64,000 nucleotides of DNA from Pseudomonas sp. FP453. Lineage in GTDB: Bacteria; Pseudomonadota; Gammaproteobacteria; Pseudomonadales; Pseudomonadaceae. Made by a program: the position numbers and the translations under genes. The notes beneath the pieces were generated by a model. The model made no database searches. It was not told the DNA's origin and was given only the letters and a program-made list of their open reading frames with translations. The stretch's first letter is position 1. The number at the start of each line of letters is the position of its first letter. Of the stretch, positions 49,441 to 55,835 are shown one piece after another. Where the stretch lies: the NCBI RefSeq assembly GCF_030687495.1, contig NZ_CP117435.1, positions 3,104,501 to 3,168,500 on the forward strand, given 5' to 3'.

Positions 49441-50724
49441 ATGCTTGTCGCCATTGGCATTTTTCTGTTCACCATCATTCTGGTCATCTGGCAGCCCAAG
49501 GGCCTCGGCGTCGGCTGGAGTGCAACGATGGGCGCCATCCTCGCCCTGGCCAGCGGCGTGATCAGCCTGGCGGATATTCCGGTGGTGTGGCACATCATCT
49601 GGAATGCCACCGGCACCTTTGTCGCGCTGATCATCATCAGCCTGTTGCTCGACGAAGCCGGCTTCTTTGCCTGGGCGGCGCTGCATGTCGCACGTTGGGG
49701 CCGTGGGCGCGGGCGGCGCTTGTTTGCCTATATGGTGCTGCTGGGCGCGCTGGTTTCGGCGCTGTTTGCCAACGACGGCGCAGCGCTGATCCTCACGCCC
49801 ATCGTGATGTCGATGCTCCTGGCGTTGCGTTTTTCCCCGGCGGCAACCCTGGCGTTTGTCATGGGCGCAGGGTTTATCGCCGATACCGCGAGCCTGCCGC
49901 TGGTGGTGTCGAACCTGGTGAACATCGTTTCGGCGGACTACTTCAAGATTGGCTTCAACGAATATGCGGCCGTGATGGTGCCGGTGAACCTCGTCAGCGT
50001 CGCGGCCACGCTGGCGGTACTGCTGTGGTTTTTCCGCCGCGATATCCCGCAGGTCTACGACCCCGCTGACCTGGCCGATCCAGCCAGTGCGATCCACGAC
50101 CGCGCCACCTTCCGCGCCGGCTGGTGGGTGCTGGGTATCCTGTTGGTCGGTTGTTTCGCCCTGGAGCCACTGGGCATTCCCATCAGTGCGATTTCCGCCG
50201 TGTGTGCCGTGCTCCTGCTGGTGATCGCCGCCAAGGGCCACAAGATTTCCACGCGCAAGGTGCTGAAGGAAGCACCGTGGCAGATCGTGATTTTCTCCCT
50301 GGGCATGTACCTGGTGGTGTACGGCTTGCGCAACGCCGGCCTCACCACGTACCTCGCAACCTGGCTCGACACCTTCGCCACCTACGGCGTGTGGGGTGCG
50401 GCCATGGGCACCGGCGTGCTGACGGCCTTGCTGTCCTCGGCGATGAACAACCTGCCGACGGTGCTGATCGGCGCGTTGTCCATCGAGTCCAGCCATGCGG
50501 TGGGTGTGATCAAGGACGCGATGATCTACGCCAACGTGATCGGCAGCGACCTCGGCCCGAAAATCACCCCGATTGGCAGCCTGGCCACCTTGCTGTGGCT
50601 GCATATTCTGGCGCGCAAGGGCATCACCATCACTTGGGGCTACTACTTCAAGGTCGGGATTGTGCTGACCTTGCCGGTGCTGTTGATCACCCTCGCCGCC
50701 CTCGCCTTGCGTTTGAGTATCTGA
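49441..50724 (+). CDS. arsB: Arsenite efflux pump ArsB
   Basis: 427 residues, about twelve membrane helices, in the ArsB family: VTIWQPKG-like start, [37 protein letters not shown] and [17 protein letters not shown]. Exports arsenite and antimonite using the membrane potential. Follows arsR by 18 bp. Confidence 0.95.
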
Positions 50725-50725
50725 A

Positions 50726-51196
50726 ATGAAAGTCCTGTTCATGTGCACCGCCAACAGTTGTCGCAGCATTTTGTCTGAAGCGCTGTTCAACCACTTGGCG
50801 CCGGCGGGTTTCGTCGCCATCAGTTCTGGCAGCTTCCCCAAGGGCCAGGTCTTGCCGCGCAGCCTGTCGACGCTGGGGACCGCAGGTATCAGCACGGAAG
50901 GCCTGTACAGCAAAGGCAATGATGCGCTTGCAGGCAGCCCGCCGGATCTGGTGATCACCGTGTGCGACAAGGCCGCCGGTGAAGCCTGCCCGGTGTATTT
51001 CGGGCCGGCGCTGAAGGCGCATTGGGGCCTGGAAGACCCTTCGGAGGTTGACGGCGATGAAGCAATGCTCGACGCCGCCTTTCACGCCACACTGGAAACC
51101 ATCGAAAGCCGCTGCCGGGCGTTTTTCGCACTGCCGTTTGCGCGCCTTGGCGCGGCCGAGTTGAAGGCTGAACTTGAACGTATCGCGCTGTTGTAA
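50726..51196 (+). CDS. arsC: Thioredoxin-dependent arsenate reductase ArsC (LMW-phosphatase type)
   Basis: 156 residues. The P-loop FMCTANSCRSILSEAL has the Cys-x5-Arg nucleophile, and ITVCDKAAGEACPVYFG holds the two further redox cysteines. Reduces arsenate to arsenite for export by ArsB. Starts 1 bp after the arsB stop. No arsH follows, unlike many Pseudomonas ars operons. Confidence 0.93.
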   Translation: MKVLFMCTANSCRSILSEALFNHLAPAGFVAISSGSFPKGQVLPRSLSTLGTAGISTEGLYSKGNDALAGSPPDLVITVCDKAAGEACPVYFGPALKAHWGLEDPSEVDGDEAMLDAAFHATLETIESRCRAFFALPFARLGAAELKAELERIALL

Positions 51197-51263
51197 CTGC
51201 AAAAACTAGAACTGCCCTGCCCAATCTGGCTATGCTCGTGCCCTTTCTCGAAAGGACGCGGGC

Positions 51264-51875
51264 ATGCTGACGATCTTCTTTTACGCACTGGTATTTGGCT
51301 TTGTGTTTTGCCTGTCCCCCGGCGCCGTGCTGGCGGAGACCCTGCGGCGTGGCTTGCTCCAGGGTTTCACCCCGGCGTTGCTGGTGCAAATCGGCTCACT
51401 GGTGGGCGACGCGGTCTGGGCGGTGATCGGCCTCACCGGCATTGCGTTGCTGATCCAGCATGACGCCGTGCGCGTGCCGCTGACCATTGCCTGCGCGCTG
51501 TACCTGGCCTGGCTCGGCGCACGCAGCCTGATGGATGCGTGGCATCTGCCGCAAGCCGACAGCGCGCCGGCCAGCTCGGCGAAGAATGCATTGGCGGTGG
51601 GCGCGACGATTTCCCTGGCCAACCCGAAAAACATTGTCTACTGGGGCGCCCTGGGCAGCGCGCTTTCCGGCATCGTCGGCGCCACGCCCAGCCATGGGCA
51701 GACGCTGATGTTTTTTGCCGGGTTCATGCTGGCATCGGTGCTGTCGTGCTTTCTGATTGCCGGGTTGGTGAACCTGTTGCGCCAGAACGCATCGCCCACT
51801 TGGCAGCGCATCAGTTACGGCGCCTGTGGCGTGGTATTGATCTATTTGGCCGTTCTCGCGGCACAGGGCATTTGA
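51264..51875 (+). CDS. LysE family exporter
   Basis: 203 residues, six membrane helices, with the LysE/RhtB start VFGFVFCLSPGAVLAETLRRG and a middle loop ATISLANPKNIVYWGALG. Exports an amino acid; which one is unknown. It follows arsC by 67 bp, with its own AAAGGA site, and is probably not part of arsenic resistance. Confidence 0.9.
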   Translation: MLTIFFYALVFGFVFCLSPGAVLAETLRRGLLQGFTPALLVQIGSLVGDAVWAVIGLTGIALLIQHDAVRVPLTIACALYLAWLGARSLMDAWHLPQADSAPASSAKNALAVGATISLANPKNIVYWGALGSALSGIVGATPSHGQTLMFFAGFMLASVLSCFLIAGLVNLLRQNASPTWQRISYGACGVVLIYLAVLAAQGI

Positions 51876-51926
51876 AGTTATATATCGAGCAACTTCCAAG
51901 TGCCTCTTGTCTGAATGAACTCTGAA

Positions 51927-51955
51927 CAACGGATAATTTAATTAATCATCCGTTG
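51927..51955. promoter_or_regulatory. Palindrome overlapping the mgtA-leader promoter
   Basis: CAACGGAT and ATCCGTTG form perfect 8-bp arms around AATTTAATTAATC. The right arm covers the first bases of the TTGACA -35 box, so a bound protein would block or help polymerase directly. The regulator is unknown. Confidence 0.5.
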
Positions 51956-51981
51956 ACATTTTGTAACTGCCTGAGTAGATT
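51953..51981 (+). promoter_or_regulatory. Strong sigma70-type promoter
   Basis: TTGACA (51953-51958), a 17-bp spacer and TAGATT (51976-51981). The transcript would start near 51988 and read through two small ORFs into mgtA. Confidence 0.65.
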
Positions 51982-51987
51982 GCCCGT

Positions 51988-52192
51988 GCCCGCAACTGGG
52001 GCCTTTTTTAAACCTCACAAAAGAAGCCAATGGACACAGTATCTAGTCGCTGTCCGAGCACCGCCTTTGCGGGCATCGGGCGCCCAACCCAGAATATGAC
52101 AGGACTCGCTTCCCGGTCCGGTAAGCTGCGCTAGAGCTCGATGCTCCACCGTAACTGCCTCACCGGTCGCCCGTCCGGTCCCGAGGTGTGTT
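51988..52192 (+). other. Structured 5' leader upstream of the 97-aa ORF and mgtA
   Basis: About 200 bp with no long ORF but several hairpin candidates: GGACA/TGTCC (52032-52055), CCGC-CTTT-GCGG (about 52061-52072) and GTCCGG/CCGGTC segments nearer the end. It does not match the Mg2+ M-box pattern as I remember it. It may be an RNA element or part of an attenuation leader. Confidence 0.35.
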
Positions 52193-52486
52193 ATGACCTT
52201 CCAAGCCTTTGTTTTACATGATATTCGCACGCTGGCCGCAGCCCTGCGCGCCAAGCTGTGCCGTGAGCCTGCAGGGTTTTCCCCAATCCGCTCGCCCTTT
52301 GCCACACCCTCCCCCCAAGTGCGCCCGGCTCACCCGCTGGCGCACTGGCGTATCTGCCCAGACAGCGGCCAACTGCTGCAGCACTGGGATCACGCCGACC
52401 CGCAGGACCCACAGAGACCGACCGTTTCCAGCCTGGCACAAGCCGGTCTGCTGCTCGGTTTCTACCTGAGCGCGCGCGCCGCTTAA
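52193..52486 (+). CDS. Small ORF in the mgtA leader, 97 aa
   Basis: Begins at the ATG at 52193 with GAGG 6 bp upstream. Reads MTFQAFVLHDIRTLAAALRA, then a Pro-rich middle (REPAGFSPIRSPFATPSPQV) and ends LLLGFYLSARAA. No recognised domain. Its place between a strong promoter and mgtA, and its proline content, suggest either a co-transcribed accessory protein or a sensing leader ORF. Confidence 0.5.
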   Translation: MTFQAFVLHDIRTLAAALRAKLCREPAGFSPIRSPFATPSPQVRPAHPLAHWRICPDSGQLLQHWDHADPQDPQRPTVSSLAQAGLLLGFYLSARAA

Positions 52487-52532
52487 TCCTGCTGGAAACA
52501 GCAACTATCTGATCAACACCCTGGAGTTCTTT

Positions 52533-52571
52533 ATGAACTATCCCAGTTGTAATTCGCTGCGCGCTATTTAA
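52533..52571 (+). CDS. 12-codon leader peptide ORF before mgtA
   Basis: ATG at 52533 preceded by CTGGAG at proper spacing; reads MNYPSCNSLRAI then TAA. It lies 138 bp before the mgtA start. A strong ribosome site with so short an ORF is typical of regulatory leader peptides; the Salmonella mgtA gene also has one (mgtL), though the sequence differs. Confidence 0.5.
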   Translation: MNYPSCNSLRAI

Positions 52572-52649
52572 CTAACGCTGCCGCAAAAGTTGTCCAGACA
52601 CTTTATTTGAACCGATCGCGAAGTCCGCGGCTCGGCATGCTTTCGCTCG

Positions 52650-52699
52650 CCTGTCAGCAGGTAAGTACCGGGTATGTTTTGTCGAGAATTGGCGACAGG
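52650..52699 (+). promoter_or_regulatory. Possible helix masking the mgtA ribosome site
   Basis: CCTGTC (52650-52655) can pair with GACAGG (52694-52699), which runs into the AGGAG Shine-Dalgarno of mgtA. Such a 6-bp helix could couple translation of mgtA to events in the leader. Inference from pairing only. Confidence 0.3.
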
Positions 52700-52709
52700 A
52701 GTACACACC

Positions 52710-55424
52710 ATGAGCGCCGTAAAAAACACGCCACTGCACAAGAAAACCACCGCCGACGCCGACACCAAACTGTCGATGCGCGCCGCCCGTGAAGCCCACA
52801 ACGGCCTGTCGGCCACCCTCGCCAACGTGCGGGCCACCCAGGACGGCCTGACCGAACTGGACGCCGCTGCACGCCTGCACCGCGAAGGCTACAACGAAGT
52901 TGCCCATGACAAGCCGCCCCACGCCATCGTGCAGTTCCTGCAAGCGCTGAACAACCCGTTCATCTACGTGCTGCTGACCTTGGCCGGCATCAGCTTTGTC
53001 ACCGACTATTGGCTGCCGCTGCAAGCCGGTGAAGAAGTCGACCTGACCAAGGTCATCATCATCATGACCATGGTCCTGCTCAGCAGCCTGCTGCGCTTCT
53101 GGCAGGAACACCGCTCGGCGAAATCCGCCGAAGCCCTGAAAGCCATGGTGCGCACCACCGCCACCGTGCTGCGCCGCGAACAAGTCGGCGCCCAGCCAAC
53201 CCTGCGCGAAGTGCCGATGCGCGACCTGGTGGCCGGCGACATCGTGCAGCTATCGGCCGGCGACATGATCCCGGCGGACATCCGCCTGATCGAATCCCGC
53301 GACCTGTTTATCAGCCAAGCGGTGCTCACCGGTGAAGCCTTGCCGGTGGAAAAGTACGACACCCTCGGCGACGTCACGCAAAAATCCGCCGCGCCCCCGG
53401 CCACCGACCAGGGCAATCTGCTGGACCTGCCGAACATCTGCTTCATGGGCACCAACGTCGTCAGCGGCCGGGCCAAGGCCGTGGTGGTCGCCACCGGGCC
53501 ACGCACCTACTTCGGCTCGCTGGCTAAGGCGATTGTCGGCTCGCGGGTGCAAACCGCGTTCGACCGTGGGGTCAATAGCGTCAGCTGGCTGCTGATCCGC
53601 TTCATGCTGGTGATGGTGCCGATCGTGTTCCTGCTCAACGGGTTCTCCAAGGGTGACTGGGGCGACGCGTTCCTCTTCGCCCTGGCGGTTGCGGTCGGCC
53701 TCACCCCGGAAATGCTGCCGATGATCGTCAGCGCCAACCTGGCCAAGGGCGCCACGGCGATGGCCAAGCGCAAAGTTGTGGTCAAGCGCCTCAATGCGAT
53801 CCAGAACTTCGGTTCGATGGACGTGCTGTGCACCGACAAGACCGGCACCCTGACCCAGGACAAGATCATCCTCGAACATCACGTCAACGCCTTTGGCCAA
53901 CGCGATGACACGGTGCTGTCCCTGGCGTGGCTCAACAGCCATCACCAAAGCGGCATGAAAAACCTGATGGACCAGGCCGTGGTGCAGTTCTCCGAGCAGA
54001 ATCCGAAGTTCCAGGTGCCGTTTGCCTACAGCAAGGTGGATGAATTGCCCTTCGACTTTGTGCGCCGTCGCCTGTCCATCGTGGTCAAGGATGCCGCCGA
54101 TGATCAGTTGCTGGTGTGCAAGGGCGCCGTGGAAGAGATGCTGAGCATTTCCACCCACGTCATGGAAGGCGGCGACGCTGTGCCACTGGACGAGCGCCGT
54201 CGCAACGAGCTGCTGGCATTGGCCAACGACTACAACGAAGACGGTTTCCGCGTGCTGGTGGTGGCCACGCGCAACATTCCCAAGGCCCTGGCCCGCCAGC
54301 AATACACCACCGCCGATGAACGCAACCTGGTGATCCAGGGCTTCCTGACCTTCCTCGACCCACCGAAGGAAACCGCCGGCCCGGCGATTGCTGCGCTGCA
54401 ACAAATCGGTGTAGCGGTCAAAGTGCTGACCGGCGACAACGCCGTGGTCACCAGCAAGATCTGCCGCCAGGTTGGCCTGGAGCCCGGCCAGCCGCTGCTC
54501 GGCGCGGAAATCGAAGCGATGGACGACGCCACCCTGCTGCGCCGCGTGGAAGAACGCACGGTGTTTGCCAAGCTGACGCCGCTGCAAAAATCCCGGGTGC
54601 TCAAGGCCCTGCAAGCCAACGGCCACACCGTGGGCTTCCTCGGTGACGGCATCAACGATGCACCGGCACTGCGCGACGCTGACGTGGGTATCTCGGTGGA
54701 CAGCGGCACCGACATCGCCAAGGAATCGGCCGACATCATCCTCCTGGAAAAGAGCCTGATGGTGCTGGAAGAAGGCGTGCTCAAGGGCCGCGAAACCTTC
54801 GGCAATATCATGAAGTACCTGAACATGACCGCCAGCTCCAACTTCGGCAACGTGTTCTCGGTGCTGGTGGCCAGTGCGTTTATCCCGTTCATGCCGATGC
54901 TGGCGATTCACCTGCTGCTGCAAAACCTCATGTACGACATCTCCCAGCTGGCCCTGCCGTGGGACAAGATGGACAAGGAATACCTGGCCAAGCCACGCAA
55001 GTGGGACGCGAAAAACATCGGGCGCTTCATGATCTGGATCGGGCCGACCTCGTCGATCTTCGACATCACCACCTTTGCCCTGATGTGGTACGTGTTCAGC
55101 GCCAACAGCGTAGAGATGCAGACGCTGTTCCAGTCCGGCTGGTTTATCGAGGGCCTGCTCTCGCAAACCCTGGTGGTGCACATGTTGCGCACCCGCAAGA
55201 TCCCGTTCTTCCAAAGCACCGCCGCGTGGCCGGTATTGATGATGACTTGCGTGGTAATCGCGCTGGGGATCTACGTGCCGTTCTCGCCCCTGGGCACCCT
55301 GGTCGGCTTGCAACCGCTGCCGCTGGCGTACTTCCCCTGGCTGGTGGGCACCCTGCTCAGCTACTGCTGCGTCGCGCAACTGATGAAAACGATCTACATC
55401 CGCCGCTTCAAGCAGTGGTACTGA
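52710..55424 (+). CDS. mgtA: Magnesium-translocating P-type ATPase
   Basis: 904 residues from the ATG at 52710 (AGGAG upstream). Cation P-type ATPase: N-terminal LQALNNPFIYVLLTLAGISF, the SQAVLTGEALPVEK actuator loop, phosphorylation site VLCTDKTGTLTQDKI, KGAVEEML nucleotide site and hinge VGFLGDGINDAPALRDADVG. The P-IIIB (MgtA/MgtB) group is shown by TPEMLPMIVSANLAKGA and the long cytoplasmic tail-less end. Imports Mg2+ down its gradient at ATP cost. Likely induced by low Mg2+ through the leader described above. Confidence 0.95.
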   Translation: MSAVKNTPLHKKTTADADTKLSMRAAREAHNGLSATLANVRATQDGLTELDAAARLHREGYNEVAHDKPPHAIVQFLQALNNPFIYVLLTLAGISFVTDYWLPLQAGEEVDLTKVIIIMTMVLLSSLLRFWQEHRSAKSAEALKAMVRTTATVLRREQVGAQPTLREVPMRDLVAGDIVQLSAGDMIPADIRLIESRDLFISQAVLTGEALPVEKYDTLGDVTQKSAAPPATDQGNLLDLPNICFMGTNVVSGRAKAVVVATGPRTYFGSLAKAIVGSRVQTAFDRGVNSVSWLLIRFMLVMVPIVFLLNGFSKGDWGDAFLFALAVAVGLTPEMLPMIVSANLAKGATAMAKRKVVVKRLNAIQNFGSMDVLCTDKTGTLTQDKIILEHHVNAFGQRDDTVLSLAWLNSHHQSGMKNLMDQAVVQFSEQNPKFQVPFAYSKVDELPFDFVRRRLSIVVKDAADDQLLVCKGAVEEMLSISTHVMEGGDAVPLDERRRNELLALANDYNEDGFRVLVVATRNIPKALARQQYTTADERNLVIQGFLTFLDPPKETAGPAIAALQQIGVAVKVLTGDNAVVTSKICRQVGLEPGQPLLGAEIEAMDDATLLRRVEERTVFAKLTPLQKSRVLKALQANGHTVGFLGDGINDAPALRDADVGISVDSGTDIAKESADIILLEKSLMVLEEGVLKGRETFGNIMKYLNMTASSNFGNVFSVLVASAFIPFMPMLAIHLLLQNLMYDISQLALPWDKMDKEYLAKPRKWDAKNIGRFMIWIGPTSSIFDITTFALMWYVFSANSVEMQTLFQSGWFIEGLLSQTLVVHMLRTRKIPFFQSTAAWPVLMMTCVVIALGIYVPFSPLGTLVGLQPLPLAYFPWLVGTLLSYCCVAQLMKTIYIRRFKQWY

Positions 55425-55487
55425 TCCCCCCGCCGTTCAAACGGTGGCGGTCGCCCGGCTGTCACCGTGCATCACAAGGATTCGAAT

Positions 55488-55835
55488 ATGCGCGTCTTGA
55501 TCTGTGCAGGTCGTCATTACGCCGACACCAAGAAGTCCCGCCAAGTGCTGGACGCTTACCACCGCCTGCGCCCGGTGCAGGTATTGATCCACGGCGGCAA
55601 CCAGTTCCTCGGCAGCGACGTCGAGGAGTGGGCGCGGGAACTGGGTATCGACGTGGTGCGCTACCCGCCCAACTGGCAACGCCACGGCAAGCAGGCGGAA
55701 CGCCAGCGCAACCATTTCATGCTGATCGACAGCCGTCCCGACGTGGTCATCGCCCTGCCGGGTGGTGACGACACGTCGGAGCTGGTCTGCCAGGCCAAAG
55801 CCAGCGGCATTTCGGTGCTGACCGTAGAAAGCTGA
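55488..55835 (+). CDS. DUF2493 (SLOG-type) protein
   Basis: 115 residues from the ATG at 55488 (AAGGA upstream). MRVLICAGRHYADTKKSRQV, then VLIHGGNQFLGSDVEEWA and DVVIALPGGDDTSELVCQAK, a Rossmann-like SLOG fold (YspA type) that may bind a nucleotide-derived ligand. Cytosolic, function unknown. Lies 63 bp after mgtA. Confidence 0.75.
   Translation: MRVLICAGRHYADTKKSRQVLDAYHRLRPVQVLIHGGNQFLGSDVEEWARELGIDVVRYPPNWQRHGKQAERQRNHFMLIDSRPDVVIALPGGDDTSELVCQAKASGISVLTVES

Follow-up and report, generated by a model that had tools for sequence, protein, structure and literature searches.

How is the magnesium pump gene mgtA controlled in pseudomonads? The question is raised by a 64,000-nucleotide (nt) stretch of Pseudomonas sp. 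FP453 (contig NZ_CP117435.1, positions 3,104,501 to 3,168,500), here called the window. The best-known leaders that control Mg2+ pumps are the enterobacterial mgtA leader and the M-box. A first-pass annotation of the window had proposed an undescribed regulatory leader with small open reading frames (ORFs) and a masked Shine-Dalgarno (SD) sequence. The core of that idea stands, while the promoter palindrome, the proline-rich peptide and a small ORF of 12 amino acids (aa) only do not; the alignments indicate that the leader is larger and differently built than first described, with an upstream ORF (uORF1) and a strongly conserved RNA that had been missed. We find two structured RNAs, R1 and R2, on either side of a small-protein gene, and put the probability that they are a pair of uORF-coupled RNA switches within a single operon leader, setting access to the SD sequences, at roughly 0.6. 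The main parts of the locus are as follows.

About 51988 to 52192, plus strand: R1, the conserved structured leader of the 97-aa gene, 205 nt (conservation and covariation).
52030 to 52134, plus strand: uORF1, with the start MDTVSSRC, 34 aa and frame-shifted in the window (ORF conservation).
52193 to 52486, plus strand: a conserved 97-aa small protein with no assigned function (protein family and gene-neighbourhood conservation).
52487 to 52709, plus strand: R2, a structured RNA between the 97-aa gene and mgtA, 223 nt (conservation and covariation).
52533 to 52571, plus strand: uORF2, MNYPSCNSLRAI, 12 aa (conserved start; 41 to 46 aa in other clades).
52710 to 55424, plus strand: mgtA, a Mg2+-translocating P-type ATPase of the PRK15122 type (NF011702, 1731 bits against a cutoff of 975).

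The best named match to the mgtA of the window is that of Pseudomonas sp. CBZ-4 (100%). Among the matches listed, at least 83 of 298 sampled same-genus genomes carry this type 1 mgtA (identity of at least 73%), and a second type follows next below at 56 to 59%. The named loci are the best 80 and include Cedecea, Rahnella, Raoultella, Kosakonia, Enterobacter and further enterobacteria, from which 11 enterobacterial loci were drawn. Using nucleotide profiles built from 62 (R1) and 63 (R2) pseudomonad sequences, we detected R1 in 79 of the 82 type 1 same-genus genomes with upstream sequence and in 78 of the 80 named loci, the remaining two having no upstream sequence; R2 was matched in 80/82 and 77/80, respectively. 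Many of these hits are the profiles' own training sequences. Independent of the training are 16 loci of group E (L094 and L096 to L110) and the 11 enterobacterial loci; R1 was found in group E at E values of 1e-25 to 1e-33 and in all 11 enterobacterial loci at 1e-21 to 2e-28, and R2 in 10 of these 11, mostly as its 3' part. Neither RNA was found in any of 12 loci with the second mgtA type, 7 of them from other genera of the family.

The gene between the two RNAs had been taken for a Pro-rich leader peptide. This reading was rejected because the ORF belongs to a conserved protein family, with 236 relatives at an E value of at most 1e-3 in a profile search, and only P56 and P73 of its 11 prolines lie in conserved columns. 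Among the best 120 of these 236 matches, the relatives are called hypothetical or uncharacterized wherever they are named; no match was found in Pfam or NCBIfam, and a predicted structure was of low confidence (predicted local distance difference test [pLDDT] 60, predicted template modeling score [pTM] 0.22) and was not used. The family shares a conserved core, WR-x-C/S-P-x-T/S-G-x-L. The gene lies directly 5' of mgtA in 63 of 80 genomes examined, some copies being partial, and the pseudomonad profile has a match 5' of an mgtA relative in all 11 enterobacterial loci (E values of 1e-22 to 3e-19, for a small searched set). Of the 66 same-genus genomes (of 298) with a match, three have weak ones (E values of 7e-4 to 9e-4) outside the 167 genomes with an mgtA match, which are probably chance. 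Judged by this conservation, the 97-aa ORF is a real gene that encodes a conserved companion protein, and the unit made of R1, the 97-aa gene, R2 and mgtA is common to Pseudomonas and Enterobacterales.

To look more widely, we used an R1 motif pattern that is strict and may miss diverged copies. It matched 1 of 369 genomes in a class-level sample, namely the window's own, and 5 of 148 in a family-level sample, all within the window's genus. Six of 295 Enterobacterales genomes were matched; three of these hits precede this mgtA, and the other three, with no mgtA or 97-aa gene in their 3-kilobase loci, were taken as chance. The E. coli genomes had no match to an enterobacterial R1-to-mgtA stretch. 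At the gathering thresholds of Rfam release 15, no leader match was found in the window or 12 relatives, hits elsewhere in those sequences being a tRNA and an ALIL element only, and at E values of up to 5 the region from 51880 to 52760 gave just one hit, unrelated, below threshold and on the minus strand. Membership of R1 or R2 in a known RNA family was therefore rejected.

Is R1 read by ribosomes? uORF1 begins with MDTVS[SR]RC in most pseudomonads. R1 hits numbered 191, reduced to 39 sequences at less than 93% identity for covariation and to 127 distinct ones for counting stops. In 30 of the 39, uORF1 is 34 to 37 aa long and ends in ARA or AGA. Its first eight codons are near-invariant in nucleotides among 118 distinct pseudomonad sequences, codons 3 to 6 being mostly ACA GTA TCT AGT (or AGA). 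These four consecutive codons (52036 to 52047) are rare ones kept in most pseudomonads; ACA, TCT and AGA are used 0 times in 1803 codons of four window genes, and the run may slow the ribosome. Toward the 3' end, the third codon position is about twice as variable as the others (0.324 versus 0.158 and 0.161 in 38 distinct in-frame pseudomonad sequences), which supports translation of uORF1; by this codon pattern, the peptide also is under constraint.

The place at which uORF1 ends is more constant than its peptide, since the stop stays while the frame differs. In all 127 distinct R1s, the stop lies at an offset of -19 to +10 from a CGCYAG element (-19 in 1, -16 in 6, -7 in 45, +3 in 6 and +10 in 69), with the sequences divided 69/52/6 among frames. 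The window and part of its clade are frame-shifted with the stop position unchanged, the window's own stop (52132 to 52134) lying at +3. Counting stops within 13 nt of the element, 64 R1s have them in three frames, 34 in two, 24 in one and 5 in none.

The strands that such a ribosome would meet, and the helices around them, are these.

51988 to 52002, plus strand: a hairpin at the expected transcript 5' end, followed by T6 at 52004 to 52009 (covariation).
52052 to 52081, plus strand: R1 hairpin H1 (94.1% of cells paired; 4 of 7 pairs changed on both sides).
52099 to 52105, plus strand: 5' strand of R1 helix a, whose partner is 52173 to 52179 (covariation).
52119 to 52125, plus strand: R1 strand b5, the anti-anti-SD, within the 3' end of uORF1 (matched versus permuted pairing with the anti-SD).
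52134 to 52146, plus strand: R1 hairpin c, GAGC/GCTC (paired in 39 of 39 sequences).
52156 to 52161, plus strand: the R1 anti-SD strand TGCCTC (three-strand pairing test).
52183 to 52188, plus strand: GAGGTG, the SD of the 97-aa gene, which pairs with the anti-SD strand (three-strand pairing test).

The roughly 200 nt of hairpins described in the first-pass annotation are supported by conservation and covariation. Conservation of the small ORFs and hairpins among relatives, set beforehand as a test, was indeed found, and alignment of the regions upstream of mgtA revealed covarying helices in both R1 and R2. Across the 39 R1s, 91.7% of cells are paired versus 83.0% in shuffles, 11 pairs have changed on both sides versus 7.8 (1 of 500), double-change cells number 105 versus 37.9 ± 7.7, and the covariation score is 0.319 versus 0.164 in shuffled and at most 0.105 in slid controls. 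The long-range helix a is paired in 97.4% of cells (4 of 6 pairs changed on both sides) and the 5' hairpin in 77.4% (3 of 6), while hairpin c is near-invariant, so that no covariation test of it is possible. RNAalifold alone gave 19 pairs for R1, 7 of them with double changes.

Strand b5 and the SD of the 97-aa gene compete for one anti-SD strand, and the partners covary. We extracted the three strands from 188 of the 191 R1 hits (leaving out L072, L132 and L151), giving 82 distinct triples; counted by core strands there are 47 triples, among which the anti-SD strand takes 18 distinct forms. Strand b5 reads GGTAAG in the window and GGGTGAG, GGGCAAG or GGTC elsewhere, and can pair with CUUGCC(UC); the anti-SD and SD pair as TGCCTC/GAGGCA or ACCTC/GAGGT, and as CACCTC/GAGGTG in enterobacteria. 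Pairing is stronger with matched than with permuted partners, both for b5 with the anti-SD (-7.5 versus -5.51 ± 0.44 kcal/mol; 0 of 5000) and for the anti-SD with the SD (-9.22 versus -7.59 ± 0.47 kcal/mol; 1 of 5000). In the control pairing of b5 with the SD, matched partners were no better than permuted ones (3906 of 5000).

One possibility is that R1 is a classical riboswitch, in which a ligand (Mg2+ or a metabolite) binds a near-invariant core and sets the anti-SD/SD switch, the open frame being a by-product of sequence conservation. The 41 invariant columns in 39 R1s from two orders, the near-invariant nucleotides of the first eight uORF1 codons and the SD-sequestering expression platform would all suit such an element. 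We nevertheless consider it unlikely, as 30 of 39 sequences keep the frame up to the common ARA/AGA end, variation is higher at the third codon position and the stops stay put under frame shift; R1 also occurs only with this mgtA type among the loci examined and has no Rfam match.

If R1 is instead a uORF-coupled switch, does R2 repeat the design before mgtA? Its parts are the following.

52521 to 52546, plus strand: an R2 hairpin enclosing the SD and start codon of uORF2 (folding; kept where the start codon is lost).
52612 to 52699, plus strand: the R2 switch, segments A to D (two mutually exclusive covarying folds, 23 sequences).
52612 to 52619, 52627 to 52635, 52677 to 52684 and 52692 to 52699, plus strand: segments A, B, C and D, respectively.
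52636 to 52640 with 52672 to 52676, plus strand: R2 helix P4.
52697 to 52701, plus strand: AGGAG, the mgtA SD (read from the sequence), which overlaps segment D.

The 12-codon ORF noted earlier is real, its start being present in 112 of 122 distinct pseudomonad R2s; comparison among clades indicates that other clades have a longer version of the same uORF, of which this is the short form. The short form accounts for 57 of the 122 (56 of 12 aa and one of 11) and a long form of 41 to 46 aa for 54, one of which (G299) is not homologous; a further one has 74 aa. Long uORF2s mostly start with M[DE][EDSC]AS[SR][RK]F, for example MDEASRRFA..., and uORF2 start peptides include MDEAS and MNTSS. The long-form stop lies -56 to -45 before mgtA in all 54 (including the nonhomologous one) and falls in three frames relative to mgtA (35, 12 and 7). 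Many short uORF2s end inside a second hairpin at the palindrome GTTAGTTAACTAAC, rich in stops, or at a related sequence (52563 to 52579 in the window); in relatives, GTTAGTTAACTAAC has stops in all three frames. In other clades, the starts of uORF1 and uORF2 are alike (MDTVSSRC and MDEASRRF; 52030 to 52053 and 52533 onwards), and the R1 profile had no hit on the R2 strand among the loci listed.

The four segments allow two folds, each excluding the other: fold I pairs A with D and B with C, and fold II pairs A with B and C with D. In 23 sequences, fold II is 92.8% paired, with 29 double-change cells versus 9.2 in shuffles and a score of 0.311 versus 0.215 shuffled and at most 0.108 slid. Fold I is 95.1% paired, with 24 double-change cells versus 8.4 and a score of 0.393 versus 0.299 shuffled and at most 0.112 slid, its A-D helix being paired in every cell. 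Two bases of the mgtA SD are paired in fold I, and the C-D stem of fold II abuts the SD. The SD-masking helix proposed in the first-pass annotation corresponds to fold I and has covariation behind it, and so has the competing fold II. In seven distinct, similar R2s, outside the 37 sequences chosen for covariation, the uORF2 start codon and the C strand are both missing and the hairpin of the old start is still there; this joint loss suggests that the two work together.

Taken together, the comparison supports conserved uORFs, a conserved stop position and covarying alternative helices that include both SDs. As expected of a uORF-controlled translation switch, there is a conserved upstream ORF, and mutually exclusive helices, one of which hides the SD, are present as judged by covariation only. 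In the mechanism that we propose, access to the SD of the following gene would depend on how far a ribosome travels in a short uORF. In the R1 OFF state, a ribosome that passes through uORF1 would end over or beside b5, so that helix b opens and the anti-SD covers the SD; in the ON state, ribosomes would fail early, helix b would form and the SD of the 97-aa gene would be free. R2 would follow the same general design, with its four segments acting on the mgtA SD. Formation of these helices in vivo is what we infer from covariation, and the direction of R1 switching is suggested by its geometry together with the usual size of the ribosome footprint. The signal would be low Mg2+ weakening translation, by analogy with MgtL of enterobacteria.

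Several observations weigh against this reading. G003, G155 and G299 have no clear R1 despite a type 1 mgtA, and G155 and G299 have no clear R2 either. Further pair types show no excess over shuffles in R1 (30 versus 32.0; 465 of 500) or R2 (124 of 500 for fold II, 125 of 500 for fold I), and single-sequence folding is not more stable than that of shuffles (z-scores of -1.0 for R1 and 0.06 for 52510 to 52730). The shuffle and permutation controls leave the relatedness of the sequences in place, and the slid controls favour any structure read from the same sequences. Covariation in R2 uses 23 of the 37 chosen sequences: excluded were group E (6) and the enterobacteria (6), because their segments A to C fail to line up, and also G217 and L178, which have other sequence in place of the region upstream of mgtA. 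A conserved uORF2 is absent from enterobacterial R2s, 4 of 11 having an ORF of 3 to 7 aa and 7 of 11 none. Two adjacent acidic residues after Met, which would suit an MgtL-like ribosome drop-off, are present in 37 of the 54 long uORF2s but in only 17 of the 57 short ones, and the joint loss of uORF2 start and C strand probably represents one event. Finally, in the window itself uORF1 is frame-shifted and uORF2 is only 12 aa long, the 3' arm of the second hairpin being lost; since both uORFs are altered in this strain, the model fits other clades better.

Could transcription account for the response by itself? Upstream of R1 lie two elements.

51910 to 51926, plus strand: direct repeat TCTGAA-N5-TCTGAA with an 11-base-pair (bp) period (candidate response-regulator site).
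51953 to 51981, plus strand: promoter TTGACA-N17-TAGATT (sole sigma-70-like site in 51860 to 52760; 0.3 ± 0.6 in shuffles).

The predicted promoter upstream of R1 is strong, as reported in the first-pass annotation, and conserved, both hexamers being well kept across aligned relatives. The palindrome described as overlapping it is AACGGATAATTTAATTAATCATCCGTT at 51928 to 51954. Of its 27 positions, 22 agree with the reverse complement; inspection by eye of an alignment of 32 sequences showed that relatives do not preserve the outer arms. As an operator it was rejected for this lack of conservation, and the alignment marks it as a peculiarity of the window's strain. The 11-bp-period direct repeat resembles a response-regulator site and is possibly one, as a candidate only. 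Its CTGAA-N6-CTGAA form is kept within the window's clade, with related repeats in some other clades; a role as a shared regulon site was rejected, the exact form having a single copy in the genome. A PhoP-like site would presumably suit a low-Mg2+ gene. No terminator-like sites were found in 51860 to 52760, which does not favour an intrinsic-terminator attenuator, and the T6 run after the 5' hairpin begins about 16 nt past the expected transcript start.

An ordinary operon, with long untranslated regions that affect mRNA stability only and a purely transcriptional mgtA response, would draw on the conserved promoter and upstream repeat, on a 5' hairpin that could protect the mRNA and on the unremarkable folding energy; it would leave unexplained the covarying, mutually exclusive helices at both SDs and the conserved uORF ends, and we regard it as quite improbable. 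We largely dismiss the possibility that both genes are controlled by a protein binding the leader RNAs, be it RsmA/CsrA-like or the 97-aa protein itself, with the uORFs minor: GGA-containing SD regions in or beside hairpins, putative sites read from the sequence, and a conserved small protein encoded between the RNAs would fit it, but the conserved uORF stops go unexplained, and G240, G268, G303 and G304 keep R1 and R2 although their 97-aa gene is truncated or disrupted, which is evidence against the 97-aa protein as regulator.

The neighbouring genes are partly conserved as well. A SLOG-family (YAcAr) gene (55467 to 55835) lies just 3' of mgtA and is found downstream of mgtA in 68 of the 80 named loci, enterobacteria included, within the available flanking DNA. 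On a Rahnella megaplasmid the gene order is 97-aa gene, mgtA, Na/Pi cotransporter and SLOG gene. Immediately upstream of the leader (49441 to 51875) are genes for the arsenite pump ArsB, an ArsC-like low-molecular-weight phosphatase and a LysE-type exporter.

How does a pair of uORF-coupled switches compare with known systems? Ribosome-controlled translation switches, that is, leader-peptide attenuators acting on an SD, likewise use a uORF and competing helices to expose or hide the SD; here two modules follow one another, each having a uORF of its own, and the end of uORF1 stays near the switch strand despite the change of frame. The M-box (ykoK) and other metal riboswitches share with this leader a conserved structured RNA before a Mg2+-transporter gene, whereas the leader here matches no family model and contains conserved uORFs. 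As in mgtL-mgtA of Salmonella and E. coli, a short leader ORF precedes a Mg2+-transporter gene and alternative RNA folds are present. According to the available text of PMC11282234, completion of the enterobacterial MgtL ORF turns expression OFF and ribosome drop-off at low Mg2+ turns it ON; the link from completion to OFF, reported there, is only proposed here. As the first-pass annotation had noted, the elements differ from the Salmonella leader. No EPDP-type peptide is seen in the uORF1 and uORF2 starts, there is no Rfam match, and two switches stand in tandem with a small-protein gene between them. Moreover, mgtL controls Rho access, whereas the covarying switch strands here involve two SDs, and the position of the stop is kept more constant than the peptide. 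Because these MgtL-type features are lacking, we read the putative switches as a new tandem form of leader-ORF control of a Mg2+ transporter.

In a literature search, no title or abstract opening among the matches listed describes this leader. The mgtE motif of 2024 is reported in Thioalkalivibrio only, in the available text of PMC11109978. The accessible part of PMC11218974 describes the Salmonella leader used as a sensor in P. aeruginosa and PA4826 insertions inferred to act on neighbouring genes. The available portions of PMC8297930 and PMC2864571 make no mention of PA4824 to PA4826 or magnesium and of magnesium or mgtA, respectively.

More tentatively, and at rather less than even odds, the leader may be a two-stage ribosome-position sensor shared by Pseudomonas and Enterobacterales, in which translation quality, meaning Mg2+-dependent ribosome processivity, sets the small protein first and then the Mg2+ pump. 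Each uORF module would place a terminating ribosome over a switch strand, and in many sequences the stop codons would catch the ribosome in any frame. The conserved stop with its changing frame leads to the claim that the place where the ribosome exits, more than the peptide, would carry the signal. The locus would also add two conserved leader RNAs without a matching family in Rfam release 15. If true, this would represent a further solution for the control of a Mg2+ pump, combining two serial switches with a new companion protein, and it would apply to a large genus of soil and plant bacteria.

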